Shown: one piece after another, positions 5,834 through 43,001 of the stretch
Layout: each line of letters starts with the position of its first letter
Position numbering within the stretch: the first letter of the stretch is position 1
Source of the DNA: a virus
Strand: one strand, 5' to 3'
IMG/VR virus record: IMGVR_UViG_3300043392_000054
Location: 118,830-182,829 of that record
Length of the DNA stretch: 64,000 nucleotides
Position numbers and translations under genes: made by a program
The notes under the pieces: generated by a model
The model's database searches: none
Seen by the model: the letters and a program-made list of their open reading frames with translations, nothing else
Told to the model about the DNA's origin: nothing

Positions 5834-6402
5834 TGGAACATTTTTACGAAAGTATTGGAGAAAATTGGTTTAACTATCAAGACGTTTATAAAAAAATGGT
5901 TGAGATAGCTAAACCAAATTCTCATTTTGTAGAAGTAGGTAGTTGGAAGGGTAGAAGTGCAGCTTTTATGGCAGTTGAAATCATAAACTCCATTAAAAAA
6001 ATACAATTCGACTGTGTAGATACATGGGAAGGTTCAATTGAGCATACTGAAAATAATAGTGTAGTTAATAGAACTCTATATGACGAATTTCTATTCAATA
6101 TTGAACCAGTTTCAAATGTTATTAAACCTATTCAAAAGCTTTCTCTAGAGGCTGCTCAAGATTATGCAGACCAAAGTTTAGATTTTGTATTTATAGATGC
6201 TTCACATGAATATGAAGATGTTTTAAATGATATAAAGGCTTGGATGCCTAAAATAAAATCTGGTGGATGGATTGCAGGTCATGATTATGTAGAAGGCAGA
6301 AAATATTGGGAAGGTGTATATGATGCTGTAAATGAATACTTTAAAGAAATTCCCTTTCAAACAATGAGCCATTGTGATGCATGGCTTTATCAAAAACCAT
6401 AA
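5833..6402 (+). CDS. Class I SAM-dependent methyltransferase-like protein
   Basis: The glycine-rich SAM motif is FVEVGSWKGRSAAF (about residues 37-50) and an acidic motif FVFIDASHEYED follows near residue 117, with GGWIAGHDY afterwards. This matches the Methyltransf_24 type often found with glycan genes. It resembles the protein at 46635. Acceptor unknown; sugar or lipid methylation is possible. Confidence 0.8.
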   Translation: MEHFYESIGENWFNYQDVYKKMVEIAKPNSHFVEVGSWKGRSAAFMAVEIINSIKKIQFDCVDTWEGSIEHTENNSVVNRTLYDEFLFNIEPVSNVIKPIQKLSLEAAQDYADQSLDFVFIDASHEYEDVLNDIKAWMPKIKSGGWIAGHDYVEGRKYWEGVYDAVNEYFKEIPFQTMSHCDAWLYQKP

Positions 6403-7134: not shown

Positions 7135-7797
7135 ATGGAAACCAAATCAAACTCAAAAATCTATCTCTGGTTAGCTATTGCGATATTAGCAATATTATTA
7201 GGCATTGAAAAATGTAATAAATCAGAGGAATCAGTTGCTCAAAATCAAGTGGCATTAGAAGCTAAACCAGCTAAAGTAGATACTATTTTGATTGAAGTTC
7301 CATCTAAGCCAAAAATTGTTTATATTACTAAATATAAAATTATTCCAAACGATAAGAGTAAATCGATTGACACAGCAAATAAAATTGTTGAGGTACCAGT
7401 TAAGGTAGATAGTTCTTTATTATTATCTAAATATTATGGTAGAAATTACCAAATTATCGAGACGACATTAGACCCAGGTTATACTTCAATCGTAACTATT
7501 GACGCTATTTCAAGAAATAAAATCATTGCAAGAAGAACATATCTTAGAACATTTAAGAAAAGACCAAATTATGTCAGTGTTTATCTTGTAGCTCCAGAAA
7601 AACCTAAGACTAGAGAATGGTATGTAGGTGGAGGAACTTCTGTTAGCAAATATGGTTTCAACACAATGCATGGTTCTGTCCTGTTAAAGAACAAACATGA
7701 TGAAATTTATCAATTAAGCGCAGGTATCACTAACACTTCACCATTAGGAGTATATGAGCCTTTTGTTGGTGCATCAATTTTATTTAAAGTAAAATAG
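7135..7797 (+). CDS. Membrane-anchored protein with beta-rich C-terminus
   Basis: Residues ~8-24 form one membrane helix followed by a Val/Pro/Lys-rich periplasmic linker. The C-terminal ~70 residues (WYVGGGTSVSKYGFNTMHGSVLLK and onward) alternate aromatic and polar residues like outer-membrane or spanin-like beta strands. A role linking inner membrane and cell wall is possible but not shown. Confidence 0.6.
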   Translation: METKSNSKIYLWLAIAILAILLGIEKCNKSEESVAQNQVALEAKPAKVDTILIEVPSKPKIVYITKYKIIPNDKSKSIDTANKIVEVPVKVDSSLLLSKYYGRNYQIIETTLDPGYTSIVTIDAISRNKIIARRTYLRTFKKRPNYVSVYLVAPEKPKTREWYVGGGTSVSKYGFNTMHGSVLLKNKHDEIYQLSAGITNTSPLGVYEPFVGASILFKVK

Positions 7798-7802
7798 TCT
7801 TA

Positions 7803-7839
7803 GATTTTTATTTGTCAGATTTTTTAATTATATTTACAT
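7803..7839 (+). promoter_or_regulatory. Class 1 promoter
   Basis: ATTTTTATTTGTC (7804-7816) then TATATTTACAT (7829-7839), upstream of the gene at 7862. Confidence 0.7.
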
Positions 7840-7861
7840 ATAGTTAAAGGATAAATATACA

Positions 7862-8161
7862 ATGAATTTAGAAAAACAAATACTTGCCTATAAAGCAGCT
7901 GCTGAAAATTATACTAAAGAAAATTTAGCGCATTGCCTAGGTAAAAATGTTGAAATCAATCAAGAAGAATATCAATATATCGTCGATATTACAATGTCTA
8001 TTTTAATGACTAGAGATGATATCGGTTATTCAGGCGGTCATTTTGCAAAAGCAATTGTAAATGATGATAATGCCGGTATATTAGAGCACGGAGATGCAGT
8101 GTGTATAAAAGCCCTTAATTTTTTTATTACAGCTAATAAATGGTGTGCAGTTTCTTATTAA
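7862..8161 (+). CDS. Hypothetical protein, 99 aa
   Basis: A small soluble protein with a mixed helix pattern and a GYSGGHFAKAIVNDD segment that recurs as a type in phage proteins of unknown role. It has its own promoter at 7803-7839. I cannot assign a function. Confidence 0.65.
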   Translation: MNLEKQILAYKAAAENYTKENLAHCLGKNVEINQEEYQYIVDITMSILMTRDDIGYSGGHFAKAIVNDDNAGILEHGDAVCIKALNFFITANKWCAVSY

Positions 8162-8164
8162 TTT

Positions 8165-8200
8165 TTGAAACAATGCTAATTTAATAAGTATAATATATAC
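8165..8200 (+). promoter_or_regulatory. Class 2 promoter of a stable-RNA operon
   Basis: TTGAAAC (8165-8171), exactly 17 bases, then TATAATATATAC (8189-8200). It is the best match to the class consensus and lies 33 bases before tRNA-Leu. Confidence 0.7.
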
Positions 8201-9016: not shown

Positions 9017-10324
9017 ATGAATAACATAGATAAACAATACCAAGCATTATTACAAGATATTTTAGATAACGGTGTAGAAAAATCAGACCGAACAGGTACA
9101 GGAACAATTTCAGTTTTTGGTAGACAGATTCGCCATAAAATGAGTGAAGGATTTCCATTATTAACCACAAAGAAAATGGCATTCAAAACTATGGTAACTG
9201 AATTACTATGGTTTTTACGTGGTGATACTAATATTAAATTCCTATTAGATTATAATTGTCATATTTGGGACGGTGACGCATATAAGAACTATCAAACTTA
9301 TATGAATAAAAACTTAACAGAGACTAAACATTGTAAAATAATAGAAGTTTCAGAAGACGATAGTGGTATAGGTGCTAAGGGTAGACACTATACAAAAGAA
9401 GAGTTCATCAACAAAATTAAAACTGATGATATATTTGCAAAACAATGGGGAGAATTAGGCCCGGTATATGGTAAACAATGGAGAGATTATAATGGTGAAT
9501 TACGTACTGAATTAAGTACTACAAAGGGTGAAGATGGGTTCTATAAATACATAACAAAACATATTCCAGGGATAGACCAAATTCAAAATCTGATTGACGA
9601 CCTTAAAACAAATCCGGATTCAAGAAGATTGATGGTCTCGGCTTGGAATGTGGCAGCATTAAACCAAATGGTACTTCCGCCTTGTCATTATGGATTTCAA
9701 GTTTATACAAGAGAGTTGAGTTGGGAAGAGAGGTTTGAATTATTTAAGAAACAAAATAATGGTTCACATCCTTATGATAATGAAATGTTAGATGATTATA
9801 ACATCCCAACCAGAGCATTATCTTTAATGTGGAATCAACGAAGTGTAGATACATTCTTAGGATTACCTTTCAACATTGCGTCATACGGTTTATTACTTGA
9901 AATACTAGCTAAAGAAGTAAATATGGTACCTGATGAATTAATTGGTAATTTAGGAGATGTTCATTTATATAAAAATCATATTGAACAAGCTAAAGAACAA
10001 ATTGGCAGAGATTTAACTGATGAAGAGAGATACAATAAATGGTTTAATAATAATGTTGTATCTGGTATGGAAAAGTTCTTTGACCCAAATAACCTACCAA
10101 ACTTTGAAGACCCATATTATGAACCAACACCAAAAAGTAGTCGAGAACCATATCCATTACCAAGGATTGAAATTACTGAAAGAGATTGGTACCAACATGA
10201 AGCAGTTAAAGAACATTTAGGCCCAAAAACTTTTAATGAAAAGATTTTATCTTATAGACCTGATTGTTTTGAATTAATCGGATATAAATCGCATCCATCT
10301 ATTAAAGCACCTTTATCAAATTAA
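9017..10324 (+). CDS. thyA: Thymidylate synthase, enlarged
   Basis: It makes dTMP from dUMP with methylene-tetrahydrofolate. SDRTGTGT (phosphate-binding Arg), the catalytic LPPCHYGFQ, SRRLMVSAWN, FNIASYGLL and GDVHLYKNH are all present. It has 435 residues against about 264 in E. coli. The extra length is an insert at ~95-140, another around 232-262 between the catalytic Cys and RALSLMWNQRS, and a longer C-terminal section. All key residues are kept, so it should be active. It supplies thymidylate for phage DNA. Confidence 0.95.
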   Translation: MNNIDKQYQALLQDILDNGVEKSDRTGTGTISVFGRQIRHKMSEGFPLLTTKKMAFKTMVTELLWFLRGDTNIKFLLDYNCHIWDGDAYKNYQTYMNKNLTETKHCKIIEVSEDDSGIGAKGRHYTKEEFINKIKTDDIFAKQWGELGPVYGKQWRDYNGELRTELSTTKGEDGFYKYITKHIPGIDQIQNLIDDLKTNPDSRRLMVSAWNVAALNQMVLPPCHYGFQVYTRELSWEERFELFKKQNNGSHPYDNEMLDDYNIPTRALSLMWNQRSVDTFLGLPFNIASYGLLLEILAKEVNMVPDELIGNLGDVHLYKNHIEQAKEQIGRDLTDEERYNKWFNNNVVSGMEKFFDPNNLPNFEDPYYEPTPKSSREPYPLPRIEITERDWYQHEAVKEHLGPKTFNEKILSYRPDCFELIGYKSHPSIKAPLSN

Positions 10325-23956: not shown

Positions 23957-23978
23957 GTTCTTTGACATATTGGTAAAA
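23957..23978 (+). promoter_or_regulatory. boxA-like antitermination element, copy 1
   Basis: GTTCTTTGACATATT followed by GGTAAAA lies 11 bases after a promoter and just before tRNA-Leu. It matches the boxA found ahead of bacterial rRNA genes, and it recurs at 24543 and 30350. Confidence 0.55.
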
Positions 23979-24542: not shown

Positions 24543-24564
24543 GTTCTTTGACATATTAGTAAAA
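24543..24564 (+). promoter_or_regulatory. boxA-like antitermination element, copy 2
   Basis: GTTCTTTGACATATT followed by AGTAAAA; it differs from the copy at 23957 by one base and has the same place between promoter and first tRNA. Confidence 0.55.
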
Positions 24565-24643: not shown

Positions 24644-24738
24644 AATCATGAGGCCATTGGTTGGCAGCACCTCCCCAAGGTTGAATCTTAGGATTCTTTA
24701 TGGCAAAGCTGAAATTGGTTCGAATCCAATCATGATTA
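24644..24738 (+). ncRNA. Expanded tRNA-like RNA, 95 nt
   Basis: Perfect acceptor AATCATG/CATGATT, D-arm GCCA/TGGC and T-arm ATTGG-TTCGAAT-CCAAT flank 47 bases with no normal anticodon stem. Two small hairpins, GAATC/GATTC and CTTT/AAAG, occupy the place instead. Confidence 0.6.
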
Positions 24739-24744
24739 CAATAT

Positions 24745-24823
24745 TGCGATGCAGGTGCATTGACGGTCTCATGAGCCGTATTGGTAGATATACCCAACAG
24801 AGGTTCGAGTCCTCTAATCGCAA
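24745..24823 (+). tRNA. Unusual tRNA with CAT anticodon
   Basis: Acceptor TGCGATG/AATCGCA (6 of 7 pairs), anticodon arm ACGGT-CTCATGA-GCCGT, T-arm AGAGG-TTCGAGT-CCTCT. The D-arm is very short, and a TTGG/CCAA hairpin lies in the variable region. Confidence 0.65.
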
Positions 24824-24825
24824 CA

Positions 24826-24945
24826 AATCTTAGGAGTAATTAACTTAAGACTGACAGGTTCGAAACTGTCGATTGATTATGGTGTAAAGGCGCACAGAGA
24901 CCGTAATTGGAGCTCAGGATTAAGGTTCGAATCCTTATTAATCAG
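24826..24945 (+). ncRNA. tRNA-like RNA with unclear anticodon
   Basis: The part at 24874-24945 has an acceptor TGATTA/TAATCA and T-arm TAAGG-TTCGAAT-CCTTA but no anticodon stem I can draw. Just upstream, GACAG-GTTCGAAA-CTGTC resembles a second, isolated T-arm. Confidence 0.45.
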
Positions 24946-24951
24946 CAATAT

Positions 24952-25023
24952 TGAGTATTAGCTCAGCGGTAGAGCTCTCGACTGTTAATCGAGCGGTCCT
25001 AGGTTCGAATCCTAGATACTCAG
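24952..25023 (+). tRNA. tRNA-Asn (anticodon GTT), copy 2
   Basis: Acceptor TGAGTAT/ATACTCA, anticodon arm CTCGA-CTGTTAA-TCGAG, T-arm CTAGG-TTCGAAT-CCTAG. Confidence 0.95.
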
Positions 25024-25028
25024 CAATG

Positions 25029-25095
25029 TATTTAACGCTCCAACTTAGGTTGGTAAGCATCCGATAGTAACCTCGGACGGGCAATGTGTTAAATA
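25029..25095 (+). ncRNA. Compact structured RNA, 67 nt
   Basis: TATTTAAC (25029-25036) pairs with GTTAAATA (25088-25095). Two hairpins, CCAAC-TTAG-GTTGG and TCCGA/TCGGA, lie inside, giving a three-way junction without a T-arm. Confidence 0.5.
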
Positions 25096-25119
25096 AGCGG
25101 TAAGGAAAAGACGAAAATA

Positions 25120-25244
25120 TTGTCAAGAGGCGAGAGGAACACGCCCCGAAACATTGATTCAAAACTTTCTGACAGAAGAACGGAGTCTCTGCTTTATCAA
25201 TGTGCTGATGGAGACTATCACTGGTTCGAATCCAGTATTGACAA
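25120..25244 (+). ncRNA. Expanded tRNA-like RNA with pseudoknot, 125 nt
   Basis: Acceptor TTGTCAA/TTGACAA, D-like arm GGCG/CGCC and T-arm ACTGG-TTCGAAT-CCAGT are intact. The anticodon region is replaced by ACATTGAT (25151-25158)/ATCAATGT (25196-25203). AGTCTC in that loop (25184-25189) is complementary to GAGACT outside it (25211-25216), an H-type pseudoknot. Confidence 0.65.
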
Positions 25245-25246
25245 CT

Positions 25247-25428
25247 AAAACAACTAACTGATTAACACTAAATAGTAACACTATCGGCAGTACGATTCTG
25301 CACTAGAAATTGGATTTGATGTGTTATCTCACAGTCTAAGATGTGAATAGTTTAGGTTAATGTAAACATAAAGTAGCTTATGGCCAAATGTAAAGTGTTT
25401 ATCCACTTAGAAGGCAGTTAGTTGTTTT
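25247..25428 (+). ncRNA. Highly structured RNA, 182 nt
   Basis: AAAACAACTAACTG (25247-25260) pairs perfectly with CAGTTAGTTGTTTT (25415-25428). Next comes ATTAACACTAAA (25261-25272) with TTTAGGTTAAT (25351-25361), one bulge. Inside are a T-arm-like GCAG-TACGATT-CTGC, TCACA/TGTGA, CATAA/TTATG and AAGTG/CACTT. No significant open frame. Confidence 0.65.
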
Positions 25429-25435
25429 AAAATAT

Positions 25436-25528
25436 AGTCAGGTGACGGAATGGTAGACGTATTTGGGTTCTCTGCCCGATACCTTTGTAAAGGCAAAAAG
25501 CTTACAGGTTCGAATCCTGTCCTGACTA
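25436..25528 (+). ncRNA. Type II tRNA-like RNA, AGTCAGG family 1
   Basis: Acceptor AGTCAGG/CCTGACT and T-arm ACAGG-TTCGAAT-CCTGT with a Leu-like 5' half. The anticodon stem TTGGG/CCCGA encloses TTCTCTG (formal anticodon CTC) and a CCTTT/AAAGG variable arm follows. The anticodon does not fit Leu, Ser or Tyr. Confidence 0.6.
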
Positions 25529-25542
25529 CAATATTAAAATAC

Positions 25543-25710
25543 GGTCAAGTAGCGGAATGTTTGCACTAGAGGTTTATTTCTGATGGTGTTGACTTGGTTA
25601 AACGCTAAGTAGTAAAGCTAACTACAGACAAAGCTGTGACGGACCCTGAAGTACAAAGGGTTGAAGTAGAAGATTACGCACGGTTATAGGTTCGAATCCT
25701 GTCTTGACCA
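25543..25710 (+). ncRNA. Expanded tRNA-like RNA, 168 nt
   Basis: Perfect acceptor GGTCAAG/CTTGACC and T-arm ATAGG-TTCGAAT-CCTGT enclose a ~110-base centre with TAGCG/CGCTA, GTAGT/ACTAC and ACCCT/AGGGT stems. It lacks the group I intron core sequences seen at 42752. Confidence 0.6.
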
Positions 25711-25782
25711 CAAGGAGTTCCCAATCTCAAGTGCTGGTTAACCTTAAAAAGTTATCCGTATGAGCCCATCAAAATTGGAATT

Positions 25783-25864
25783 TGCCTGTATCGCATAGCG
25801 GCAATTGCGGCTGACTGTAAATCAGCTCCTTCGGGTTCAGAGGTTCGAGTCCTTTTGCAGGCAC
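25783..25864 (+). tRNA. tRNA-Tyr (anticodon GTA), copy 1
   Basis: Acceptor TGCCTGT/GCAGGCA, anticodon arm GCTGA-CTGTAAA-TCAGC, variable arm with TTCGG, T-loop TTCGAGT. Confidence 0.93.
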
Positions 25865-25920
25865 GATTAAACAAAAATATTTACGTAAGTATAATTAATA
25901 CAACTATTAAAATTAAAATT

Positions 25921-26139
25921 ATGACATCTAACGAATTCACTTATTGGTTACAAGGTTTTTTTGAAATTTCAAAAGCTGCTAATGTAAAAGAACTTGATGA
26001 AGTGCAAACTCAAATTATCAAAGACCATTTAGAATTAGTTTTTAAAAAAGAAACACCTAATAGAACATGGTCCGATACGGGTGGAAATAGAGGCACGTGC
26101 GGAACTGCGGGAACTGCGGGAATTCCGTTTGGAATGTAA
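25921..26139 (+). CDS. Small phage protein, MTSNEFTYWLQGFFE family
   Basis: The ~72-residue protein has a helical first part (EFTYWLQGFFEISKAANVKELDEVQTQIIKD) of a kind common among small T4-like phage proteins of unknown role, and a disordered Gly/Thr-rich end (GTCGTAGTAGIPFGM). The ATG at 25921 follows an A-rich leader; it lies between two tRNA-Tyr genes. Confidence 0.75.
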   Translation: MTSNEFTYWLQGFFEISKAANVKELDEVQTQIIKDHLELVFKKETPNRTWSDTGGNRGTCGTAGTAGIPFGM

Positions 26140-26150
26140 GATATTAATTT

Positions 26151-26231
26151 GGGAGTATTGAGCAATTGGTTGGCTCGCCGGTCTGTAAAATCGGTCCTTC
26201 GGGCATGTAGGTTCGAGTCCTACTGCTCCCA
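26151..26231 (+). tRNA. tRNA-Tyr (anticodon GTA), copy 2
   Basis: Acceptor GGGAGTA/TGCTCCC, anticodon arm CCGGT-CTGTAAA-ATCGG, variable arm TCCTTCGGGCA, T-arm GTAGG-TTCGAGT-CCTAC. Confidence 0.9.
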
Positions 26232-26235
26232 CTAA

Positions 26236-26337
26236 AGTATTAGTAATTCAGTGGTAAGACTGGCGTCCCCTCATGGTTAAGGGCCGAAAAGCTGGGAATA
26301 AGACGATCGCCGTTGGTTCGAGTCCAACCTAATACTT
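26236..26337 (+). ncRNA. Expanded tRNA-like RNA, 102 nt
   Basis: Acceptor AGTATTA/TAATACT is perfect and the T-arm GTTGG-TTCGAGT-CCAAC normal. Between D-arm and T-arm a GGCG/CGCC helix encloses about 40 bases with a CCCT/AGGG hairpin, and no clear anticodon. Confidence 0.55.
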
Positions 26338-26342
26338 TAAAT

Positions 26343-26413
26343 ACGAGTGTGGTGCAATGGTAGCATTCCGGTCTCCAAAACCGTCGATGGGAGTTCGAAT
26401 CTCTCCACTCGTG
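26343..26413 (+). tRNA. tRNA-Trp (anticodon CCA)
   Basis: Acceptor ACGAGTG/CACTCGT, anticodon arm CCGGT-CTCCAAA-ACCGT, T-loop TTCGAAT. Confidence 0.93.
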
Positions 26414-26476
26414 CAAATAGTTTTACAGGTCGTTCTGTCCTTGGGTTCTATAAATCAAAAATCCTAAAAAAGGCCA

Positions 26477-26550
26477 GGACTCTTAGCTCAGTTGGTTAGA
26501 GCACCCGACTCATAATCGGTAGGTCGTAGGTTCAAGCCCTACAGGGTCCA
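26477..26550 (+). tRNA. tRNA with CAT anticodon, copy 2
   Basis: Acceptor GGACTCT/AGGGTCC, anticodon arm CCCGA-CTCATAA-TCGGT, T-loop TTCAAGC. Met or Ile2. Confidence 0.9.
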
Positions 26551-26554
26551 CATT

Positions 26555-26628
26555 TGATTCTTTAGGCTAACGGATAAACCTCTCGGCTACGAACCGAGGA
26601 TTGAATGTTCGAATCATTCAGGAATCAC
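26555..26628 (+). tRNA. tRNA-Arg (anticodon ACG)
   Basis: Acceptor TGATTCT/GGAATCA, anticodon arm CTCGG-CTACGAA-CCGAG, T-loop TTCGAAT. Confidence 0.93.
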
Positions 26629-26633
26629 AATAT

Positions 26634-26707
26634 TGCGATATGGTAGAGATGGTTTCTTACGGTGCTCTCATAAGGCACAGACATTGGTTCAAATCCAATT
26701 GTCGCAA
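26634..26707 (+). tRNA. tRNA with CAT anticodon, copy 3
   Basis: Acceptor TGCGATA/TGTCGCA, anticodon arm GTGCT-CTCATAA-GGCAC, T-arm ATTGG-TTCAAAT-CCAAT. Met or Ile2. Confidence 0.88.
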
Positions 26708-26759
26708 CAAAAGTTTTTACGGTGGTTCTGGTTCTTCAAAAACGCTATCACCTCCACCA

Positions 26760-26833
26760 GACTCCGTAGCTCAGTTGGTTAGAGCACCTCACTTTTAATG
26801 AGGGGGTCAATGGTTCGAGTCCATTCGGGGTCA
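26760..26833 (+). tRNA. tRNA-Lys (anticodon TTT)
   Basis: Acceptor GACTCCG/CGGGGTC, anticodon arm CCTCA-CTTTTAA-TGAGG, T-loop TTCGAGT. Confidence 0.95.
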
Positions 26834-26839
26834 CAATAT

Positions 26840-26933
26840 GCTTCATACACAATTCTGCAATCTCTCAGTTAAAAGCTGTTGCAGACGTAAATGAATAATC
26901 CAACATGGTTATTAGTTGTGAACAATATGAAGC
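26840..26933 (+). ncRNA. Structured RNA, 94 nt
   Basis: GCTTCATA (26840-26847) pairs with TATGAAGC (26926-26933). TCTGCAA/TTGCAGA (26854-26860/26879-26885) and an AATAA/TTATT hairpin lie inside. It sits between tRNA-Lys and tRNA-Ile. Confidence 0.55.
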
Positions 26934-26938
26934 TCCAT

Positions 26939-27012
26939 GCACCTTTAGCTCAGTTGGTTAGAGCACCGACCTGATACGTCGGGGGTCGAAGGTTCGAGTC
27001 CTCCAAGGTGCA
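26939..27012 (+). tRNA. tRNA-Ile (anticodon GAT), copy 1
   Basis: Acceptor GCACCTT/AAGGTGC, anticodon arm CCGAC-CTGATAC-GTCGG, T-loop TTCGAGT. Confidence 0.95.
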
Positions 27013-27021
27013 CAATTATAT

Positions 27022-27095
27022 GGTGTTTATCGTCTAACGGTTAGGACGCTGGTTTGTGGTACCAGCAATCTGAGTTCGATTCTCAGTAGACACCC
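27022..27095 (+). tRNA. tRNA-His (anticodon GTG)
   Basis: Acceptor GGTGTTT/AGACACC with discriminator C, anticodon arm CTGGT-TTGTGGT-ACCAG, T-loop TTCGATT. Confidence 0.94.
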
Positions 27096-27099
27096 CAAT

Positions 27100-27184
27100 G
27101 GAAGTTTGTCCGAGTGGCTTATGGTGACACTTTGCTAAAGTGTTGGATGTAATAGTCCCACAGGTTCGAATCCTGTAACTTCCT
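27100..27184 (+). tRNA. tRNA-Ser (anticodon GCT)
   Basis: Acceptor GGAAGTT/AACTTCC, anticodon arm ACACT-TTGCTAA-AGTGT, long variable arm, T-arm ACAGG-TTCGAAT-CCTGT. It is the only clear serine tRNA and a natural substrate for the SerRS at 33243. Confidence 0.94.
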
Positions 27185-27210
27185 CAATGACAAAAACAAT
27201 CGATAAAAGA

Positions 27211-27246
27211 TTTTTATTTATTGAAACTTTTAGTTACATTTACAGT
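27211..27246 (+). promoter_or_regulatory. Class 1 promoter, weak match
   Basis: TTTTTATTTATTG then TACATTTACAG (27235-27245). It precedes the genes at 27276-28045. Confidence 0.6.
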
Positions 27247-27275
27247 ATATTAATATATACCAAATTTGACTTATA

Positions 27276-27656
27276 ATGGGAAATAGCCTGAAAAATGAAT
27301 TTGCAGCATACGAACATGCATTGGCTGTAAAAGAATTAGGGTTTAATTGGAAGTGTTTTGGCTTCTATGATAGTCCAACCCTTCAATTAATGCATTGTAT
27401 AAACTCTGAGCCTTGGATGGGAAATGCAGTTGTTGCAGCACCGCTAAAAAGTCAACTATTTAGATTCTTTCGGGAGAAGTATAATCAAAATTCATTTATT
27501 GAATTAGTTTATCAAGATGGAATAAAATATGATTATGTTTTATATGCAGATAAAGATGAAGAAGTATGCGGAAATTTTGGAGATGGACCTTTTAATACTT
27601 ACGAAGAAGCAGAGAATGCTTGTATCGATAAACTTATAGAACTAGCTAAACAATAA
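27276..27656 (+). CDS. Hypothetical protein, paralogue of 40732
   Basis: This 126-residue protein shares with 40732 the order EFxxYExAxAxxxLGFNxxCxGxY, VxAAPLKxQxFxxFREKY and YExAENxxIDxLIELAKQ. The pattern recurs in phages of Bacteroidota as proteins of unknown role; the conserved FREKY and IELAKQ ends suggest a small helical-beta domain. It is followed by 27658 without a gap. Confidence 0.75.
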   Translation: MGNSLKNEFAAYEHALAVKELGFNWKCFGFYDSPTLQLMHCINSEPWMGNAVVAAPLKSQLFRFFREKYNQNSFIELVYQDGIKYDYVLYADKDEEVCGNFGDGPFNTYEEAENACIDKLIELAKQ

Positions 27657-27657
27657 A

Positions 27658-27891
27658 ATGAAAACAAGAATTCATGTTAATCAACACAATATTCGTTCAA
27701 ATAAAACAAAGGGTACAGATTTACCAGTTATAACTATTAAACAGGGTAAAAAAAATACTTATTGTAATGAAGTAGAAATACTTGGTCCTAGTAAAATTAT
27801 TTATTCAGGCTCAGGTTGTGATACTGCAGCTTTATTAGGTTGTGGTGCTAGAGTAGTGATAGAAACAGAATCAGATGTGATAATTAAATAA
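27658..27891 (+). CDS. Hypothetical protein, 77 aa
   Basis: A small beta-rich protein with LGPSKIIYSGSGCDTAALLGCGARVVIETE, containing two Cys. It starts two bases after the stop of 27276. Family unknown. Confidence 0.65.
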   Translation: MKTRIHVNQHNIRSNKTKGTDLPVITIKQGKKNTYCNEVEILGPSKIIYSGSGCDTAALLGCGARVVIETESDVIIK

Positions 27892-27901
27892 ACAATAAAT
27901 T

Positions 27902-28045
27902 ATGAAATGGTTAGATAGAAATATTTTGTATATTACCTTTGGCTTTTTAGCAGCTTGTATTCTTTTTCAAATGTGGTATATTCAAAAATTAAAAAGTGAA
28001 TTAAAGTTGTTTAATCAAAAACAAATTGTTATGCCAAAAAAATAA
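27902..28045 (+). CDS. Small membrane protein
   Basis: A 47-residue product with one hydrophobic helix (NILYITFGFLAACILFQMW) and a basic C-terminal part. Function unknown. Confidence 0.55.
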   Translation: MKWLDRNILYITFGFLAACILFQMWYIQKLKSELKLFNQKQIVMPKK

Positions 28046-28061
28046 TTTGAAAATAAAGGCT

Positions 28062-28103
28062 CAAATATTTTTTATTGTCACCGGAATTTAGTAGATTTAC
28101 AGT
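28062..28103 (+). promoter_or_regulatory. Class 1 promoter
   Basis: TCAAATATTTTTTATTGTC then TAGATTTACAGT (28092-28103), upstream of the gene at 28125. Confidence 0.7.
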
Positions 28104-28124
28104 ATACTAATAAACAATAAGACA

Positions 28125-28355
28125 ATGACTGAAGAACAAATCTACAACGAGCAACAGGAATACAATCGTTACCAAGAGTTGATTAATACAAAGGAAATCT
28201 TAACTCAAGAAGAGTATGAACTTTGTAAAGCTTGGAATGCTGATGAGGCTTGGAAATATTTAAATGATATTGGTAATGGTCAATGGTTAAACATCAACGT
28301 TTACTCTGAAGTGGATAAAGAAGAGTTTGACCTTAGAAAGGAAATGGGTTTTTAA
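28125..28355 (+). CDS. Small acidic hypothetical protein
   Basis: A 76-residue, Glu/Tyr/Asn-rich protein (EEQIYNEQQEYNRYQELINT), mostly helical. No motif. It has its own promoter and is followed by a class 2 promoter. Confidence 0.65.
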   Translation: MTEEQIYNEQQEYNRYQELINTKEILTQEEYELCKAWNADEAWKYLNDIGNGQWLNINVYSEVDKEEFDLRKEMGF

Positions 28356-28358
28356 TTA

Positions 28359-28394
28359 TTGAAACTATATAAAAATAGTACATATAATATATAC
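28359..28394 (+). promoter_or_regulatory. Class 2 promoter of a stable-RNA unit
   Basis: TTGAAAC (28359-28365), 17 bases, TATAATATATAC (28383-28394): both boxes equal those at 8165, also before tRNA-like genes. Confidence 0.7.
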
Positions 28395-28396
28395 AT

Positions 28397-28468
28397 TGCG
28401 GGGAGGACAAATGGTAAGTCGTTAGTCTCATAAGCTAAAGAAGGTAGTTCAATTCTACCCCCACGCAA
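28397..28468 (+). tRNA. Divergent tRNA with CAT anticodon
   Basis: Anticodon arm TTAGT-CTCATAA-GCTAA and T-arm GGTAG-TTCAATT-CTACC are normal. The acceptor TGCGGGG/CCCACGCA needs one bulge, so it may be decaying. Confidence 0.6.
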
Positions 28469-28469
28469 C

Positions 28470-28741
28470 AATGAGTAAGAGATACTCAGCAGTCTTTAAT
28501 CCAAGACTCATTTAACAATGGATAGGGTAATGGACCGGACATCCTAACTATATAAAAAGCCGGTCTCATGGGGATAAAGGAACGGGGACACGGTTCCTTC
28601 CCAGTAAGTGTTGACTTTTTAAGCGGTAAGACGCGTTGGGTTTTTGAAAGCAAAAAACTATAAATATCTACCCATCTAGAATCTCAAGGTGGGGAAAGAA
28701 GTTCTGAGGTTGGCGAGCTCTTCTATAAAAAAGCAATCCAT
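28470..28741 (+). ncRNA. Structured untranslated region
   Basis: AATGAGT/ACTCATT closes a first hairpin (28470-28515). ATGGAT/ATCCAT (28518-28523/28736-28741) encloses GACCGG/CCGGTC, a strong AAGGAAC/GTTCCTT hairpin (28577-28599) and AATCTCA/TGAGGTT (28680-28711). AGAAG within the last loop is complementary to CTTCT at 28720-28724 (pseudoknot). No open frame of note. Confidence 0.45.
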
Positions 28742-28748
28742 CCACTAT

Positions 28749-28863
28749 AGTCAGGTGGCGGAATGGTAAACGCAGGTTCGGTGGAGCAAAAGAACTCCAT
28801 ACCAGAGTAAGCAATTAGTTTATGACTAACACCTATTTACAGGTTCGAATCCTGTCCTGACTA
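28749..28863 (+). ncRNA. Expanded tRNA-like RNA, AGTCAGG family 2
   Basis: Acceptor AGTCAGG/CCTGACT and T-arm ACAGG-TTCGAAT-CCTGT equal those at 25436. The centre holds two hairpins, TGGAG/CTCCA with loop CAAAAGAA and TTAG/CTAA with loop TTTATGA, neither a normal Leu/Ser anticodon arm. Confidence 0.55.
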
Positions 28864-28879
28864 CTAAACAAATAACATT

Positions 28880-29068
28880 ATGAGAAAAGAAGAAACATTA
28901 ATTTTAAGCAGAGAAGATATGATTGCAGCTGTAAGTGATAAAGATGTTCAGCATATTAATTGTTCTGACTTTAAGATTGATAGTAACCTATTTCAAAAAA
29001 GTAGTATTGTTTTGTTCATAGACGATAATAATCAATCTAAGATTCTTAAAAACCGATACGGCTTATAG
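28880..29068 (+). CDS. Small hypothetical protein within RNA region
   Basis: A 62-residue frame (MRKEETLILSREDMIAAVSD) after an A-rich leader. Its last codons run into a tRNA 3' fragment (29051-29090), so the C-terminus may come from insertion into a tRNA-like gene. It may be real but degenerate. Confidence 0.45.
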   Translation: MRKEETLILSREDMIAAVSDKDVQHINCSDFKIDSNLFQKSSIVLFIDDNNQSKILKNRYGL

Positions 29069-29090
29069 GTTTGAATCCTGTTTTGACTAC
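29051..29090 (+). pseudogene. tRNA 3'-end fragment
   Basis: ATAGG-TTTGAAT-CCTGT followed by TTTGACTAC matches the T-arm and acceptor end of the 25543 and AGTCAGG families, but no matching 5' half is present. Confidence 0.5.
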
Positions 29091-29167
29091 GGTTCTGTGC
29101 TGCCTGAACGTACAGAAGGTTTTAAGTGACCTTGCTTAGATACTTAATGACTGATGGAAAGACATCG

Positions 29168-29227
29168 AATTCAATAGTACCTGAACAGTTAAATAGAGTG
29201 GGTATCCGCACAAAATGCTATTGAATT
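29168..29227 (+). ncRNA. Hairpin RNA, 60 nt
   Basis: AATTCAATAG (29168-29177) pairs perfectly with CTATTGAATT (29218-29227). Upstream, TTCTGT/ACAGAA and TTAAGT/ACTTAA give two further hairpins in 29093-29150. Confidence 0.45.
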
Positions 29228-29231
29228 ATTT

Positions 29232-29321
29232 AGTCAGGTGGCGGGAGTCTACACGGAGGCATCTGTGTGTTGGTTCGAGTCCAACGAGGTGTAAATACAG
29301 GTTCGAATCCTGTCCTGACTT
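29232..29321 (+). ncRNA. Nested tRNA-like RNA, AGTCAGG family 3
   Basis: Outer acceptor AGTCAGG/CCTGACT and T-arm ACAGG-TTCGAAT-CCTGT enclose a second complete T-arm, GTTGG-TTCGAGT-CCAAC, itself bracketed by TACAC/GTGTA and next to CACGGA-GGCA-TCTGTG. There is no anticodon arm. Confidence 0.55.
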
Positions 29322-29434
29322 CAAAATAATTAGAGAGAATGTGGGTTCGAATCCCACCTGGGCTGTCCGGTGAGGAGGGCCCGGTAGTGGAAAGGGACAA
29401 AGCACTCTATTTATTAAAGTATTGTAATAAACAT
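29322..29434 (+). other. Orphan T-arm and GC-rich structured spacer
   Basis: GTGGG-TTCGAAT-CCCAC (T-arm) appears 5' of a TGTCC/GGACA helix, inside AATTAGAG/CTCTATTT, so the T-arm is on the wrong side for a normal tRNA. Confidence 0.4.
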
Positions 29435-29595
29435 AGTCGGGTGACGGAGAGGAAACGCATGGTAAGACGCGTAATTACTTACACGGCTCACCACACACAG
29501 GTTCGAATCCTGTCCTGACTACAATGTATCAAATGTGCAGTGAAAATTAGTGTAGGCATACATTGATGAGGTGGGTTCGATTCCCGTTTAATAAT
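29411..29595 (+). ncRNA. Possible outer tRNA-like RNA enclosing 29435
   Basis: TTATTAAA (29411-29418) is complementary to TTTAATAA (29587-29594), directly after GTGGG-TTCGATT-CCCGT. CAATGTAT/ATACATTG is a hairpin inside. The whole 29435-29521 element lies within. The A/T-rich helix could be coincidence. Confidence 0.35.
29435..29521 (+). ncRNA. tRNA-like RNA, AGTCAGG family 4
   Basis: Acceptor AGTCGGG/CCTGACT (one wobble) and T-arm ACAGG-TTCGAAT-CCTGT. GGTGA/TCACC and ACGC/GCGT helices take the centre; no anticodon identified. Confidence 0.5.
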
Positions 29596-29600
29596 TCCTA

Positions 29601-29712
29601 ACTATGGAGGAAGCCAAGTAGCTGAGAACACATTATAGCCGGAATGGGTTGTGCACCTTGTCTAAGAGACCCTAATAGTTCCTAATAGGTCGGTATGGAA
29701 CTGATACATAGT
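29601..29712 (+). ncRNA. Structured RNA, 112 nt
   Basis: ACTATG/CATAGT close the domain. AGTTCC/GGAACT (29677-29682/29697-29702) is inside, and GACC (29668-29671) can pair with GGTC (29688-29691) in its loop. Confidence 0.4.
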
Positions 29713-29721
29713 AATATAGGT

Positions 29722-29812
29722 TGATTGGGGAATGGTTATGTCGATAGTTCGAGAGTGAATGCTGACTGACATAATCGGAGTTTAGAAGTATTCACCATAG
29801 TAAAGCCAATCA
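29722..29812 (+). ncRNA. Structured RNA with pseudoknot, 91 nt
   Basis: TGATTGG/CCAATCA close it. TTATGTC/GACATAA (29736-29742/29768-29774) encloses GTGAAT (29755-29760), complementary to ATTCAC (29790-29795) outside. Confidence 0.5.
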
Positions 29813-29857
29813 TAAAAGTAGATGTCCACTGAACCATCTTCTACTTTCCTAATAAAT

Positions 29858-29974
29858 AAGAGGCGGTGAAAGCTGTAATGATGAGCTTACGAGGTTAAGG
29901 TTTGAAAAAGGGTTAATAGTACGACTTAAAGCCTGCACTCATCATCAGTAACCCTGAAAGACCCGTAGCCTCTT
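29858..29974 (+). ncRNA. Structured RNA with pseudoknot, 117 nt
   Basis: AAGAGGC/GCCTCTT close it. ATGATGAG/CTCATCAT (29878-29885/29938-29945) encloses GGGTTA (29910-29915), complementary to TAACCC (29949-29954) outside. It has no T-arm and no anticodon. Confidence 0.6.
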
Positions 29975-29978
29975 AATT

Positions 29979-30051
29979 GCTTCCATAGCTCAGTTGGTAG
30001 AGCAGCTGATTTGTAATCAGCAGGTCGTTGGTTCGAACCCGACTGGAAGCT
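29979..30051 (+). tRNA. tRNA-Thr (anticodon TGT)
   Basis: Acceptor GCTTCCA/TGGAAGC, anticodon arm GCTGA-TTTGTAA-TCAGC, T-loop TTCGAAC. Confidence 0.94.
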
Positions 30052-30054
30052 CGC

Positions 30055-30115
30055 TGGATTATTGAATTGAATGATACGAGCCCCGAAAGTTCGAAATGAG
30101 TCATTCGATAATCCA
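30055..30115 (+). ncRNA. Small hairpin RNA, 61 nt
   Basis: TGGATTAT/ATAATCCA (8 bp) with an inner GAATGA/TCATTC helix and a loop containing GTTCGAAA. Confidence 0.45.
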
Positions 30116-30119
30116 AATT

Positions 30120-30258
30120 GATTCTATAGTTGTTTAGGTCGCTCCGAAAACAACGAGTGGGTTAATGATGGTTTAATATTACTGTCCAATATTCTAGATA
30201 AAGTGATAAGTGATTAAACAAGTAATTAACAAGATGGGTTCGATTCCCATTAGAATCG
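30120..30258 (+). ncRNA. Expanded tRNA-like RNA, 139 nt
   Basis: Acceptor GATTCTA/TAGAATC and T-arm ATGGG-TTCGATT-CCCAT are perfect. The D-arm is enlarged (GTTGTTT/AAACAAC). GTTAAT/ATTAAC and GTTTAAT/ATTAAAC helices enclose AATATT-ACTGTCC-AATATT, whose 7-base loop lacks the usual T33 (formal anticodon TGT). Confidence 0.6.
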
Positions 30259-30263
30259 CATTT

Positions 30264-30337
30264 GGTTCGTTAGTAGAGTTGGTTACAATGTCGCCCTGTC
30301 ACGGCGAAGGTCACGGGTTCGAGTCCCGTACGAACCG
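30264..30337 (+). tRNA. tRNA-Asp (anticodon GTC)
   Basis: Acceptor GGTTCGT/ACGAACC, anticodon arm TCGCC-CTGTCAC-GGCGA, T-loop TTCGAGT. Confidence 0.95.
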
Positions 30338-30349
30338 CATTACATTATC

Positions 30350-30373
30350 GTTCTTTGACATATAGGAGAAAAC
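30350..30373 (+). promoter_or_regulatory. boxA-like element, copy 3
   Basis: GTTCTTTGACATATAGG, overlapping the left inverted-repeat arm and preceding the gene at 30379. Confidence 0.45.
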
Positions 30374-30378
30374 AAATT

Positions 30379-30699
30379 ATGGATATACTATCATTCGTTT
30401 TAGGGATTGCTGTTGTCGTGGTTATTGGATTATCAATAGTTGCGGTTATTGCATTTGTTAAGGCAAAGAAAATAGAAAAACAATTAGAAAACGTAGAATC
30501 TCATATTTTCAGAATATTGCAATCTGAAATATCAGATACACATCTAAAAATTGATGAAGTTGAAAAAGGAACTCATCAGTTAATTGATGAAGTTGAAAAA
30601 GGAACTCATCAAAGAATAGATGAATTAGAAAACAACGTCTTTTCTCAAATGGATTCGAGATTAGATAAACTAGAAAACAAATTAACAACTAAAAAATAA
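30379..30699 (+). CDS. Membrane protein with heptad repeats, inside tRNA array
   Basis: Residues ~4-30 form one membrane helix (ILSFVLGIAVVVVIGLSIVA); the rest is coiled coil. A 10-residue unit, IDEVEKGTHQ, occurs twice in tandem, followed by a related IDELENNVFSQ. The gene is brac keted by a 17-bp inverted repeat and lies between tRNA-Asp and tRNA-Glu. Function unknown. Confidence 0.7.
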   Translation: MDILSFVLGIAVVVVIGLSIVAVIAFVKAKKIEKQLENVESHIFRILQSEISDTHLKIDEVEKGTHQLIDEVEKGTHQRIDELENNVFSQMDSRLDKLENKLTTKK

Positions 30700-30729
30700 A
30701 AATTAGTTGAAGAACGATAATGTAATTTT

Positions 30730-30801
30730 GGCCCTATCGACAAGCGGTTAAGTCACGTCTCTTTCTAAGATGAGTCACGGGTTCGAATCCCGTTGGGGCT
30801 A
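30730..30801 (+). tRNA. tRNA-Glu (anticodon TTC)
   Basis: Acceptor GGCCCTA/TGGGGCT, anticodon arm CGTCT-CTTTCTA-AGATG, T-loop TTCGAAT. Confidence 0.92.
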
Positions 30802-30809
30802 CTTTAAAT

Positions 30810-30880
30810 TATTCCATGGTGTAACGGTAACACTACTGTTTTTGGTGCAGTCGTTGGAGGTTCGAATCCTTCTGGAATAA
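30810..30880 (+). tRNA. tRNA-Gln (anticodon TTG)
   Basis: Acceptor TATTCCA/TGGAATA, anticodon arm ACTGT-TTTTGGT-GCAGT, T-loop TTCGAAT. Confidence 0.93.
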
Positions 30881-30881
30881 C

Positions 30882-30985
30882 AGCTTAAAACCGCATCGGG
30901 TATCGTGAACAAGGGAGGCCTGCAACTTGAAATAAAGACAAATCACGTTAAATCTCTCCATTGAAGGTGCTATCGGTGACCTTCT
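30882..30985 (+). ncRNA. Structured spacer RNA
   Basis: CGTGA/TCACG encloses GGAG, complementary to CTCC outside (possible pseudoknot); GAAGGT/ACCTTC is a hairpin at the 3' side. It lies between tRNA-Gln and tRNA-Ile. Confidence 0.4.
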
Positions 30986-30989
30986 AAAT

Positions 30990-31063
30990 AGTGGTATAGC
31001 TCAGTTGGTTAGAGCATCGATCTGATACGTCGGGGGTCCCTGGTTCGAGTCCAGGTATCACTA
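30990..31063 (+). tRNA. tRNA-Ile (anticodon GAT), copy 2
   Basis: Acceptor AGTGGTA/TATCACT, anticodon arm TCGAT-CTGATAC-GTCGG, T-arm CCTGG-TTCGAGT-CCAGG. Confidence 0.93.
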
Positions 31064-33242: not shown

Positions 33243-34502
33243 ATGCTAAATATTAATTTTATTAAACAAAATGCAGATTTTGTTAAGGAAAGACTTTTAT
33301 TCAAAGGATTTAAAGATATTAATCTTGTAGATGACCTAATAGACGCATCTAAAGATAAGCATGCATTACAGCAAAAAAGTGAATTGATTCAATATGAAAT
33401 CAATCAAGTTTCAACACAAATCGGTGTTTTATTTAAAAACGGAGAGGATGTTACTAAATTAAAGGCATCTATTTCACCACTTAAACAAGATTTAGTAGTT
33501 TTAGTAGAAGATATACGTCAACTTGAAGATAAAATACAAAATATTTTATATCAATTACCAAATCTACCTAATGAAGAGGTTCCTTATGGTGAAAGTGCTG
33601 AACAAAATGAAGTAGTGTACCAAGAAGTAGTTAATACAGAAAAAGCTCCTTTAGCACAATATGATTTAATTGAAAAATATAATTTAGTTAATTTTGAATT
33701 AGGTTCTAAAATTACAGGTCGTGGATTTCCAGTTTTTATTGGAGATGGTGCAAAATTACAAAGAGCATTAACCCAATACTTTTTAGATTTTAATACTAAT
33801 GCAGGTTATTTAGAATACATTCCGCCATTTATGGTAAATGAAGACTCAGCTTTAGCAACTGGTCAATTACCTGATAAAGATGGACAGATGTACTATATGG
33901 AAAAAGATGAACTTTATCTAATTCCAACTGCTGAGGTACCTGTAACAAATGTTTATCGAGATACTATTATTAAAGAGTCAGATTTACCAATTAAAATGAC
34001 AGCACATTCTCCTTGTTTTAGAAGAGAAGCTGGTAGTTTTGGTAAAGAAGTTAGAGGATTGAATAGAGTACATCAATTTGAAAAGGTTGAAATCATTCAG
34101 ATTGCGCATCCTGAAAAGAGTGAAACTGCATTAAATGAAATGGTTGAGCATGTTAAAAATTTGTTAGAATCTCTAGAATTACCATATAGAATTTTAAAAT
34201 TGTGTAGCCATGATATGAGTTTTACCTCAGCTATTACTTATGATTTTGAAGTTTGGAGCCCAGGTCAACAAATGTGGTTAGAAGTAAGTTCAGTTTCTAA
34301 TTTCAATACATATCAAACGCATAGAATGAAATGTAGATTTAAAGACCAGAATGGTAAAATGCAAAATCCGCATTCTTTAAATGGTAGTGCATTAGCTTTA
34401 CCAAGAATTTATGCAGCTTTAATTGAAACATTCCAAACAGAAAGGGGTATAAAGATACCAGAGGTGTTAAAGCCTTATTTTGGAAAAGATTATATAGAGT
34501 AA
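33243..34502 (+). CDS. serS: Seryl-tRNA synthetase
   Basis: The N-terminal ~110 residues form the tRNA-binding coiled coil (MLNINFIKQNADFVKERL). The class II catalytic core follows with TAEVPVTN, motif 2 FRREAGSFGKEVRGLNRVHQ and motif 3 HSLNGSALALPRIYAALIE. The length of 419 is close to bacterial SerRS, and all motif residues look intact. It charges tRNA-Ser using the long variable arm rather than the anticodon. A phage SerRS is rare. It is followed within 4 bases by an abnormal 159-nt tRNA-like RNA. Confidence 0.95.
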   Translation: MLNINFIKQNADFVKERLLFKGFKDINLVDDLIDASKDKHALQQKSELIQYEINQVSTQIGVLFKNGEDVTKLKASISPLKQDLVVLVEDIRQLEDKIQNILYQLPNLPNEEVPYGESAEQNEVVYQEVVNTEKAPLAQYDLIEKYNLVNFELGSKITGRGFPVFIGDGAKLQRALTQYFLDFNTNAGYLEYIPPFMVNEDSALATGQLPDKDGQMYYMEKDELYLIPTAEVPVTNVYRDTIIKESDLPIKMTAHSPCFRREAGSFGKEVRGLNRVHQFEKVEIIQIAHPEKSETALNEMVEHVKNLLESLELPYRILKLCSHDMSFTSAITYDFEVWSPGQQMWLEVSSVSNFNTYQTHRMKCRFKDQNGKMQNPHSLNGSALALPRIYAALIETFQTERGIKIPEVLKPYFGKDYIE

Positions 34503-34505
34503 CAT

Positions 34506-34664
34506 TGTAGTGTGGCGAAATGCGTACGCTCGGCAGACGCACCCTCCTGTCTCGGGGGTGAGGAGTTCAAAATAAAGTAAGGATATCGGGGTAGACCACC
34601 AGCTTGCAAGCGCTATTGTCCTTTACCTAATTGCCTCGTGGTGGTTCGACTCCACCCACTACAG
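34506..34664 (+). ncRNA. Expanded type II tRNA-like RNA after serS, 159 nt
   Basis: Acceptor TGTAGTG/CACTACA and T-arm GGTGG-TTCGACT-CCACC are perfect. The D-region contains TGCGT/ACGCA, and CACCCTC/GGGGGTG encloses the 7-base loop CTGTCTC (formal anticodon GTC). About 70 further bases follow, with GTAAGGA/TCCTTTAC and GCTTGCAAGC. It starts right after the serS stop. Confidence 0.65.
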
Positions 34665-34685
34665 CTATAAAAAAACTAAGTAGAA

Positions 34686-42696: not shown

Positions 42697-43001
42697 GGGG
42701 GTATAGCTCAGATGGCTAGAGCACCTGCCTTGCACGCAGGGGGTCGTGGGTAGGTAAAGAGCCCACTTAAGTAGTGATACTTAAATAAAAAACCGGATGA
42801 ATTGCTGGAAATCTAAGTCAGAAATGATATGACAATCAGCAGCCAAGCTTAAGATACATCTTAAGAAGGTTCAGAGACTAGTGGAGAAGTAAAGTCTTCT
42901 TAATAACCACATTAGCGTCCGGCATCTCATTAGAGATGAAGATATAGTCCGACACTCTTTCGAAAGAAGAGATTACAGTAAGTCGAATCCCTCTATCTCC
43001 A
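42697..43001 (+). tRNA. tRNA-Ala (anticodon TGC), split by a group I intron
   Basis: Exon 1 (42697-42751) ends inside the T-arm; exon 2 (42983-43001) begins TCGAATCC. Joined, they give acceptor GGGGGTA/TATCTCC, anticodon arm CTGCC-TTGCACG-CAGG and T-loop TTCGAAT (T-stem with one T-T mismatch). The anticodon is TGC for alanine. Confidence 0.88.
42752..42982 (+). other. Group I intron in the T-loop, 231 nt
   Basis: P1 forms between exon GTGGGT and internal guide GCCCAC (42761-42766) with the expected U-G at the splice site. The core elements P (AATTGCTGGAAA), Q (AATCAGCAGCCAAG), R (GTTCAGAGACTA) and S (AAGATATAGTCC) appear in order, and the last intron base is G. It encodes no protein itself. 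Confidence 0.92.

Follow-up and report, generated by a model that had tools for sequence, protein, structure and literature searches.

Phage RNA elements that keep a tRNA-like shell and exchange their cores

The last 64 kb of the 182,829-bp IMG/VR virus record IMGVR_UViG_3300043392_000054 (positions 118,830 to 182,829; this whole stretch is the window hereafter) contain a transfer RNA (tRNA) array at approximately 23.8–31.1 kb, in which expanded tRNA-like elements of 86–167 nt are interspersed among about two dozen tRNAs—raising the question of what RNAs with tRNA-like ends and abnormal centres might do for a phage. Our analysis led to four observations. The elements keep a shell (acceptor stem, D-arm, T-arm and discriminator base, of the tRNA-Leu type in the largest group), with the decoding part replaced by other cores; the stems of two families, termed A and S, covary; H-type pseudoknots are formed by a subset of cores; and different sites and phages have exchanged cores with one another, the alignments ending in the shell halves. 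We favour, with reasonable if limited confidence, a reading in which these elements are phage noncoding RNAs that combine a stable, tRNA-processed shell with an exchangeable structured core, the latter probably acting as a ligand or decoy in phage conflict.

To locate the elements, a T-arm and a 7-bp acceptor stem were scanned for jointly, the strict count requiring all seven pairs and a length of 87–170 nt. On this basis, eight elements were found on the + strand (seven already listed in an initial annotation of the array, plus one at 34506) and none on the − strand, compared with a mean of 0.05 and a maximum of one in 60 dinucleotide shuffles of the window; the elements are therefore real and not chance formations. 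Similarly, seven of the 32 T-arms of the region have a full Watson–Crick acceptor at the required distance, as opposed to 0.09 with the upstream sequence shuffled. A T-arm with a TTCRA loop and a 7-bp acceptor, both features of a canonical decoding tRNA, are thus present in the elements. All nine elements of the initial annotation exist: eight were recovered by the scan (29435 with one G-U pair) and the ninth, at 25120, was recognised by sequence, the spacing between its T-stem and acceptor being slightly irregular. Some details needed correction, in that the proposed length of 87–168 nt applies to most of them but not to 29435 (86 nt), the element placed at 26236 starts at 26237, and the range 24644–31063 encloses all nine but leaves out the further element at 34506–34664 (158 nt). 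The sharing of AGTCAGG/CCTGACT and ACAGG-TTCGAAT-CCTGT by four elements with unrelated middles was borne out, except that 29435 reads AGTCGGG. Most elements do lack a normal anticodon arm, as had been suggested, but 25436 and 34506 keep an anticodon-like hairpin; 25436 is named tRNA-Glu by ARAGORN, and 28749 and 29435 match the Rfam tRNA model at gathering score—the general tRNA model being the only Rfam family matched by window elements at that score. Conservation confined to the acceptor half fits the AGTCAGG group; in the families of 24644 and 34506, by contrast, the middles are conserved as well. The wider class, the pseudoknots and the swapping of cores had escaped the initial annotation.

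The AGTCAGG shell proved to be widespread among viruses. As exact patterns, its 3′ and 5′ halves each matched at least 120 stretches in viral contigs, these contigs being fragments and all class counts referring to the matches listed; a search of 84,980 genomes of bacteria and archaea with the 5′ half gave only three hits, all on contigs shorter than 8 kb. Pooling of the fetched loci (designated by L numbers) yielded at least 371 distinct elements, or 360 on 203 loci once over-long ones were removed, with a median length of 103 nt (333 elements with full acceptor and ≤190 nt) and a class range of 66–190 nt. A Leu-type D-arm, TGGCGGAATTGGTAGACGC or a variant of it, occurs in 236 elements; in 218 of these, the T-stem is preceded by a T (U48), the partner of A15 in tRNA-Leu. 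The D-arm of the shell also recurs in an ordinary tRNA-Leu encoded on L289. The cores are far more diverse, 229 of them falling into 178 clusters with 145 singletons. Moreover, the class extends beyond jumbo phages: elements are present both in the complete 60,850-bp podovirus MW202828.1 (acceptor AGTGCAG/CTGCACT) and in the 735-kb phage LR756501.1 (AGTTAAG/CTTAACT). ARAGORN called 28 of 184 AGTCAGG elements as tRNAs, and the anticodons it assigned were scattered instead of consistent as in a decoding tRNA. Two 70-nt AGTCAGG shells, on L100 and L240, have apparent ordinary tRNA-Lys(TTT) anticodon arms.

Compensatory base-pair changes were assessed in families A and S, collected from IMG/VR by pattern scans as relatives of 24644 and 34506, respectively. 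The family A element of the window (24644–24738, + strand, as are all elements described here; 94 nt plus A73) has the acceptor AATCATG/CATGATT, a 3-bp D-stem, three hairpins enclosed by a 3-bp helix (AGC/GCT), and the T-arm ATTGG/CCAAT. Its family S counterpart (34506–34664) has the acceptor TGTAGTG/CACTACA, G73, a D-loop hairpin, an anticodon-like arm with a constant GUC and a 75-nt structured variable arm with the apex GGGGTAGACCACCAGCTTGCAAGC. Among the 33 distinct sequences of family A (24644 included), 98.8% of the cells are paired, a value biased upward by a structure drawn on the family's own alignment; double changes affect 12 of 29 pairs, against at most three with the partners slid, and compensatory changes were found in the acceptor, the D-stem, the 3-bp closing helix and the T-stem. 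In the 48 distinct sequences of family S (146–174 nt, 34506 included), 99.2% of the cells are paired, biased likewise by an RNAalifold structure from the same alignment, and double changes affect 23 of 43 pairs, against at most eight in slid controls; the related metagenomes behind both sets of sequences are not fully independent. The double changes are stronger evidence than the paired percentages. Because parts of each core were prescribed by the patterns used for scanning (CATTGGTTGG...CACCTCNCCAAGGTTGAGT and TRGACCACNAGCTNGCAA), conservation within those stretches is partly imposed, but the double-change pairs fall outside the prescribed letters. With many relatives and strong compensatory changes in both families, the elements are not decaying tRNAs.

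Within family S, the loop of the anticodon-like stem always contains GUC, preceded by T, A or C; the D-loop hairpin differs among members or is missing, and the apex GGGGTAGACCACCAGCTTGCAAGC is nearly invariant. Family A occurs in two acceptor/T-arm kinds, i.e., an AATCATG type with ATTGG and an AGTCAGG type mostly with ACAGG, and a family A-like core lies behind a Leu-type D-arm in L176 and L268. Neither family matched any named phage record, and 34506 matched no Rfam family at gathering score. An idea of anti-Shine-Dalgarno mimicry in family A, based on a resemblance of GGTTGGAATCACCTCC to the 3′ end of 16S ribosomal RNA (rRNA), was dropped, as other members do not preserve this motif; L013, for instance, has CACCCCTC. 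A phage seryl-tRNA synthetase (SerRS) gene at 33243–34502 (Pfam tRNA-synt_2b and Seryl_tRNA_N) ends 3 nt before the family S element. A partnership between the two was rejected, with no SerRS homologue in any fetched locus, family S loci included, and no relative in a viral scan with the SerRS. A candidate PreQ1 riboswitch at 34635–34685 scored 31.1 bits, below the gathering score of 39, and overlaps the T-arm and the A-rich leader of a lysozyme gene; it was likewise set aside.

In the cores of the wider class, a signal of structure was sought in nested folding, which proved weak, and in H-type pseudoknots, which proved the stronger signal. Among 158 non-redundant cores, 33 contain a pseudoknot at p ≤ 0.05 (7.9 expected from dinucleotide shuffles) and 13 at p ≤ 0.01 (1.6 expected). 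Helices cross in many cores—helix 1 opens, helix 2 opens, helix 1 closes, helix 2 closes, and the T-stem follows, usually after 2 nt. The related cores of L160, L204 and L253, which have most of their sequence in common, contain three different 6-bp second helices (GGGTAC/GTACTC, GATAAC/GTTATC and GAACAC/GTGTTC), each of them complementary. At the short end of the class, the 69–71-nt elements of L126 and L153 have cores of only about 17–20 nt.

The exchange of cores is seen in L008, a relative with a 94% identical aminopeptidase. At 75–95% identity, L008 aligns to most of the ordinary tRNAs and to elements 25120, 26237, 30120 and 34506; the middles of 25436, 25543, 28749, 29232 and 29435 do not align. 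Homology breaks off where the D-arm of 28749 ends (28774) and picks up again at the T-arm of 29232 (29296); between these points, both cores and the intervening open reading frame (ORF) differ from L008. Two blocks of the array, 29870–29973 and 24824–24948, are placed differently in L008 (7239–7342, 90% identical, and 9105–9229, 88%), which means that other array segments also move. Across 185 locus pairs, which are not independent of one another, 50 of 408 alignment starts lie in 3′ halves of elements (0.55% of the sequence) and one in 5′ halves; conversely, 42 of 403 alignment ends lie in 5′ halves (0.64% of the sequence) and nine in 3′ halves. At one site compared across nine contigs, the 300-nt flanks have median identities of 92% and 90%, the 3′ shell 100% and the 5′ shell 81%, as against 57% for the core, close to the 51% given by random unrelated cores under the same method. 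In addition, among 63 pairs of elements from different contigs whose cores are homologous, 56 show no relationship between either of their flanks, and some identical cores sit within slightly different shells.

How such RNAs might be made can be drawn from the general course of tRNA maturation; tRNA processing with CCA addition, or a decoy role, had already been suggested in the initial annotation. Neither RNase P nor RNase Z, which both act on the stacked acceptor and T-arm, needs an anticodon arm; such RNAs would therefore be excised and stable. The elements would be transcribed within tRNA arrays or between small genes, released by these two enzymes and, by virtue of their tRNA-like ends, may persist as stable species; the shell would then be nature's equivalent of the tRNA scaffold engineered to stabilise RNAs. 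The least certain part of the reading concerns what the cores do: each might be a ligand that binds or decoys a factor of the host or of a rival phage, e.g., a nuclease or toxin acting on tRNA or other RNA, a role that we regard as possible and on the unlikely side. Ligand or decoy cores would explain why cores turn over fast at a fixed position under an unchanged shell, and such replacement in turn points, with lower confidence, to conflict with the host or rival phages. Several observations weigh against the shell-and-core reading as a whole. Nested folding of the cores barely beats controls (mean z −0.73 versus about −0.3), and approximately four fifths of them have no significant pseudoknot by the shuffle test; a few AGTCAGG shells hold apparent ordinary tRNAs, and at least one half-copy of the shell is decayed; and no protein family consistently adjoins the elements, the commonest neighbour occurring, at a distance, in 28 of 194 loci, in a survey that did not search for toxin families.

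The frequent abutment of elements and ORFs led us to consider that the shell might serve only as processing punctuation, cutting polycistronic phage mRNAs through RNase P and RNase Z into messages with short leaders, with a middle that is filler and free to change. An ORF starts 0–20 nt downstream of 74 of the 360 elements, compared with 42 of 455 ordinary tRNAs, an ORF stop lies within 20 nt upstream of 83 of the 360 and 43 of the 455, and the features of the shell would suit recognition by both enzymes. Filler, however, would not be expected to behave as these middles do: they are conserved and covary in families A and S, and cores are replaced whole, with no drift and with pseudoknot pairing retained—which speaks against pure punctuation, as do several elements situated between ordinary tRNAs with no mRNA there to cut. 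We thus deem this explanation unlikely, if still worth weighing. The constant halves could instead be exchange points at which phages trade small gene or RNA cassettes, with the RNA itself doing little, a possibility that draws on the concentration of alignment ends in the shell halves with their strong polarity, on the joint exchange of cores and a small ORF between 28774 and 29296 relative to L008, and on identical cores in slightly different shells. DNA exchange alone, however, requires neither RNA pairing nor a conserved discriminator base and U48, nor compensatory changes that keep the fold, and no recombinase stood out near the elements, in a survey that made no search specific to recombinases; we consider this account quite unlikely.

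The remaining alternatives fare worse. Functional tRNAs with introns or unusual arms, decoding after splicing, would fit the 28 ARAGORN calls and the two AGTCAGG shells resembling ordinary tRNA-Lys, but the cores of L126 and L153 leave no room for both an anticodon arm and a variable arm, which argues against hidden introns; moreover, no group I intron match was found in the window elements and anticodon assignments are inconsistent, down to the variable base before the family S GUC, making this reading very improbable. A stable shell with cargo would also suit antisense regulators whose cores pair with phage or host mRNAs. The longest complementarity of the window middles to the rest of the window is, however, no longer than that of shuffled middles, and to this idea we attach hardly any weight. 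Finally, the initial annotation had allowed for pseudogenes whose stems decay without compensation. Decaying tRNAs with outer stems surviving by chance find support in the decayed half-copy at 29067–29087 and in window T-arms that lack a matching acceptor; against this stand perfect acceptors far above chance, long ordered inserts conserved over dozens of phage contigs and the compensatory changes in the families of 24644 and 34506, where the test came out against decay, rendering this the least credible of the explanations considered.

Among known RNAs, the closest precedent found is RNA C of bacteriophage T4, which belongs, with a second small RNA, to the T4 tRNA region; its role is stated as unknown (PMC3014915, PMC9697503). 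It was detected by Northern blot as a late RNA and is known as a discrete, stable transcript (PMC9697503). This 139-nt RNA (species 1 RNA, rnaC, NC_000866 70908–71046) lies within the tRNA cluster and resembles the elements, likewise located among or close to tRNA genes, in that its long middle is joined to a tRNA-like 3′ half made up of a T-arm (CCGGG-TTCGAAT-CCCGG) and a stem like an acceptor; it differs in two U-U mismatches in this stem and in the absence of a recognisable Leu-type D-arm, and a comparison with the window elements revealed no similarity in sequence. A search for distant rnaC relatives returned, among the matches listed, only T4-like phages of enterobacteria. Compared with T4, RNA C of Citrobacter phage Moon and Enterobacter phage KMB20 shows compensatory changes in the acceptor (CGA..TCG to CGG..CCG) and the T-stem (CCGGG/CCCGG to CCTGG/CCAGG), and that of Enterobacter phage EnC15 has the T-stem CCAGG/CCTGG and a different sequence over much of its middle. 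A construction of this kind, swapped middle included, therefore exists in a laboratory phage group. In the EnC15 RNA C (L433), AAAGTAGTTGACGCT of the middle is, by eye, almost the full complement of AGCGTCAACTACTTT, a strand of the 3′ hairpin of the same RNA, which hints at an alternative fold.

Other RNA types share fewer features with the class. Bacterial tRNA-Leu has the D-arm TGGCGGAATTGGTAGACGC, discriminator A, U48 and T-arm also present in AGTCAGG elements, which differ from it in that most have no anticodon arm or ordinary variable arm, their length extends over 66–190 nt and many of their middles are unrelated. Transfer-messenger RNA (tmRNA) lacks an anticodon and has pseudoknots between its tRNA-like ends; the window elements are far shorter, and none of them matched the tmRNA covariance model. 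Two AGTCAGG-bearing contigs have tmRNA matches of their own, L070 at 7609–8193 and L075 at 5468–5866, with a group I intron match directly adjoining that of L070. YrlA, a bacterial Y RNA, contains a tRNA-like domain, but was rejected as a candidate because the best matches in the region, at 22.8 and 21.4 bits, fell far short of the gathering score (69). Type III toxin–antitoxin RNAs (ToxI-like) are short H-type pseudoknots that inhibit a nuclease, and the H-type pseudoknot is significant in about a fifth of the cores described here; the phage cores differ in being held singly in a tRNA shell, and the type III antitoxin families of Rfam gave no match in five loci with pseudoknotted cores at E values up to 1.

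Tentatively, and with rather less than even confidence, we propose that exchangeable RNA cassettes form a common pool among phages: hypervariable and often pseudoknotted effectors in a tRNA-Leu shell, swapped whole by way of that shell in an arms race, with T4 RNA C as an early-described member. Such a pool, if real, would be the RNA counterpart of hypervariable protein cassettes, and uncultured phages would hold a widespread class of RNA that tRNA finders mostly skip or misname. The conflict-like turnover of the cores would bring possible anti-defence or inter-phage effectors into view, and the link to T4 RNA C would allow a long-standing question to be addressed by experiment in a laboratory phage. 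The cassette reading would be new in kind if confirmed; the construction itself is known, unexplained, from T4 RNA C. Rfam has no families of its own for this class, and no description of it was found in open-licence papers, a weak negative in that subscription papers lay mostly outside the search.

The other elements of the window vary in detail. The irregular element 25120–25245 (about 125 nt; TTGTCAA/TTGACAA, D-like arm GGCG/CGCC, T-arm ACTGG/CCAGT) has one extra nt between T-stem and acceptor, a nested fold no better than shuffles (z −0.97) and, read by eye, a possible pseudoknot of ACATTGAT/ATCAATGT with AGTCTC/GAGACT; its copy in L008 is 95.5% identical. The AGTCAGG-shell element 25436–25529 (92 nt) combines the tRNA-Leu-like D-arm TGACGGAATGGTAGACG with the hairpin TTGGG-TTCTCTG-CCCGA, which is TTGGA/TCCGA, a compensatory change, in its relatives in L074 and L234, where identical cores lie at unrelated sites. 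Element 25543–25711 (167 nt; GGTCAAG/CTTGACC) has an insert apparently in the D-loop (TAGCG...CGCTA, by eye) and is absent from L008, in which its flanks are homologous. Element 26237–26336 (99 nt; GTATTAG/CTAATAC) is conserved in L008 at 5799–5897. Two further AGTCAGG shells both have a fold z of −2.3: 28749–28863 (114 nt), directly 5′ of a small ORF at 28880–29068, and 29232–29321 (89 nt), which includes a second T-arm-like hairpin (GTTGG-TTCGAGT-CCAAC) in its middle and has a similar element in L091. The AGTCGGG/CCTGACT element, whose acceptor holds the single G-U pair, spans 29435–29521, and element 30120–30258 (138 nt; GATTCTA/TAGAATC) has a relative in L008 with GGTTCTA/TAGAACT, i.e., one compensatory pair, and a diverged middle. 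The decayed AGTCAGG 3′ half at 29067–29087 (+ strand) has three mismatches and the T-loop TTTGAAT, with no matching 5′ half found.

Beyond the elements themselves, a partial tRNA match at 42703–42767 (31.9 bits, model positions 7–64) received no ARAGORN call. The motif GTTCTTTGACATA occurs in three exact copies, with none expected, at 23957–23969, 24543–24555 and 30350–30362; the copies resemble the boxA antitermination signal of rRNA operons and precede tRNA genes and the ORF at 30355. A hairpin at 30057–30117, between a tRNA-Thr gene and element 30120, folds with a z of −4.4 relative to shuffles.

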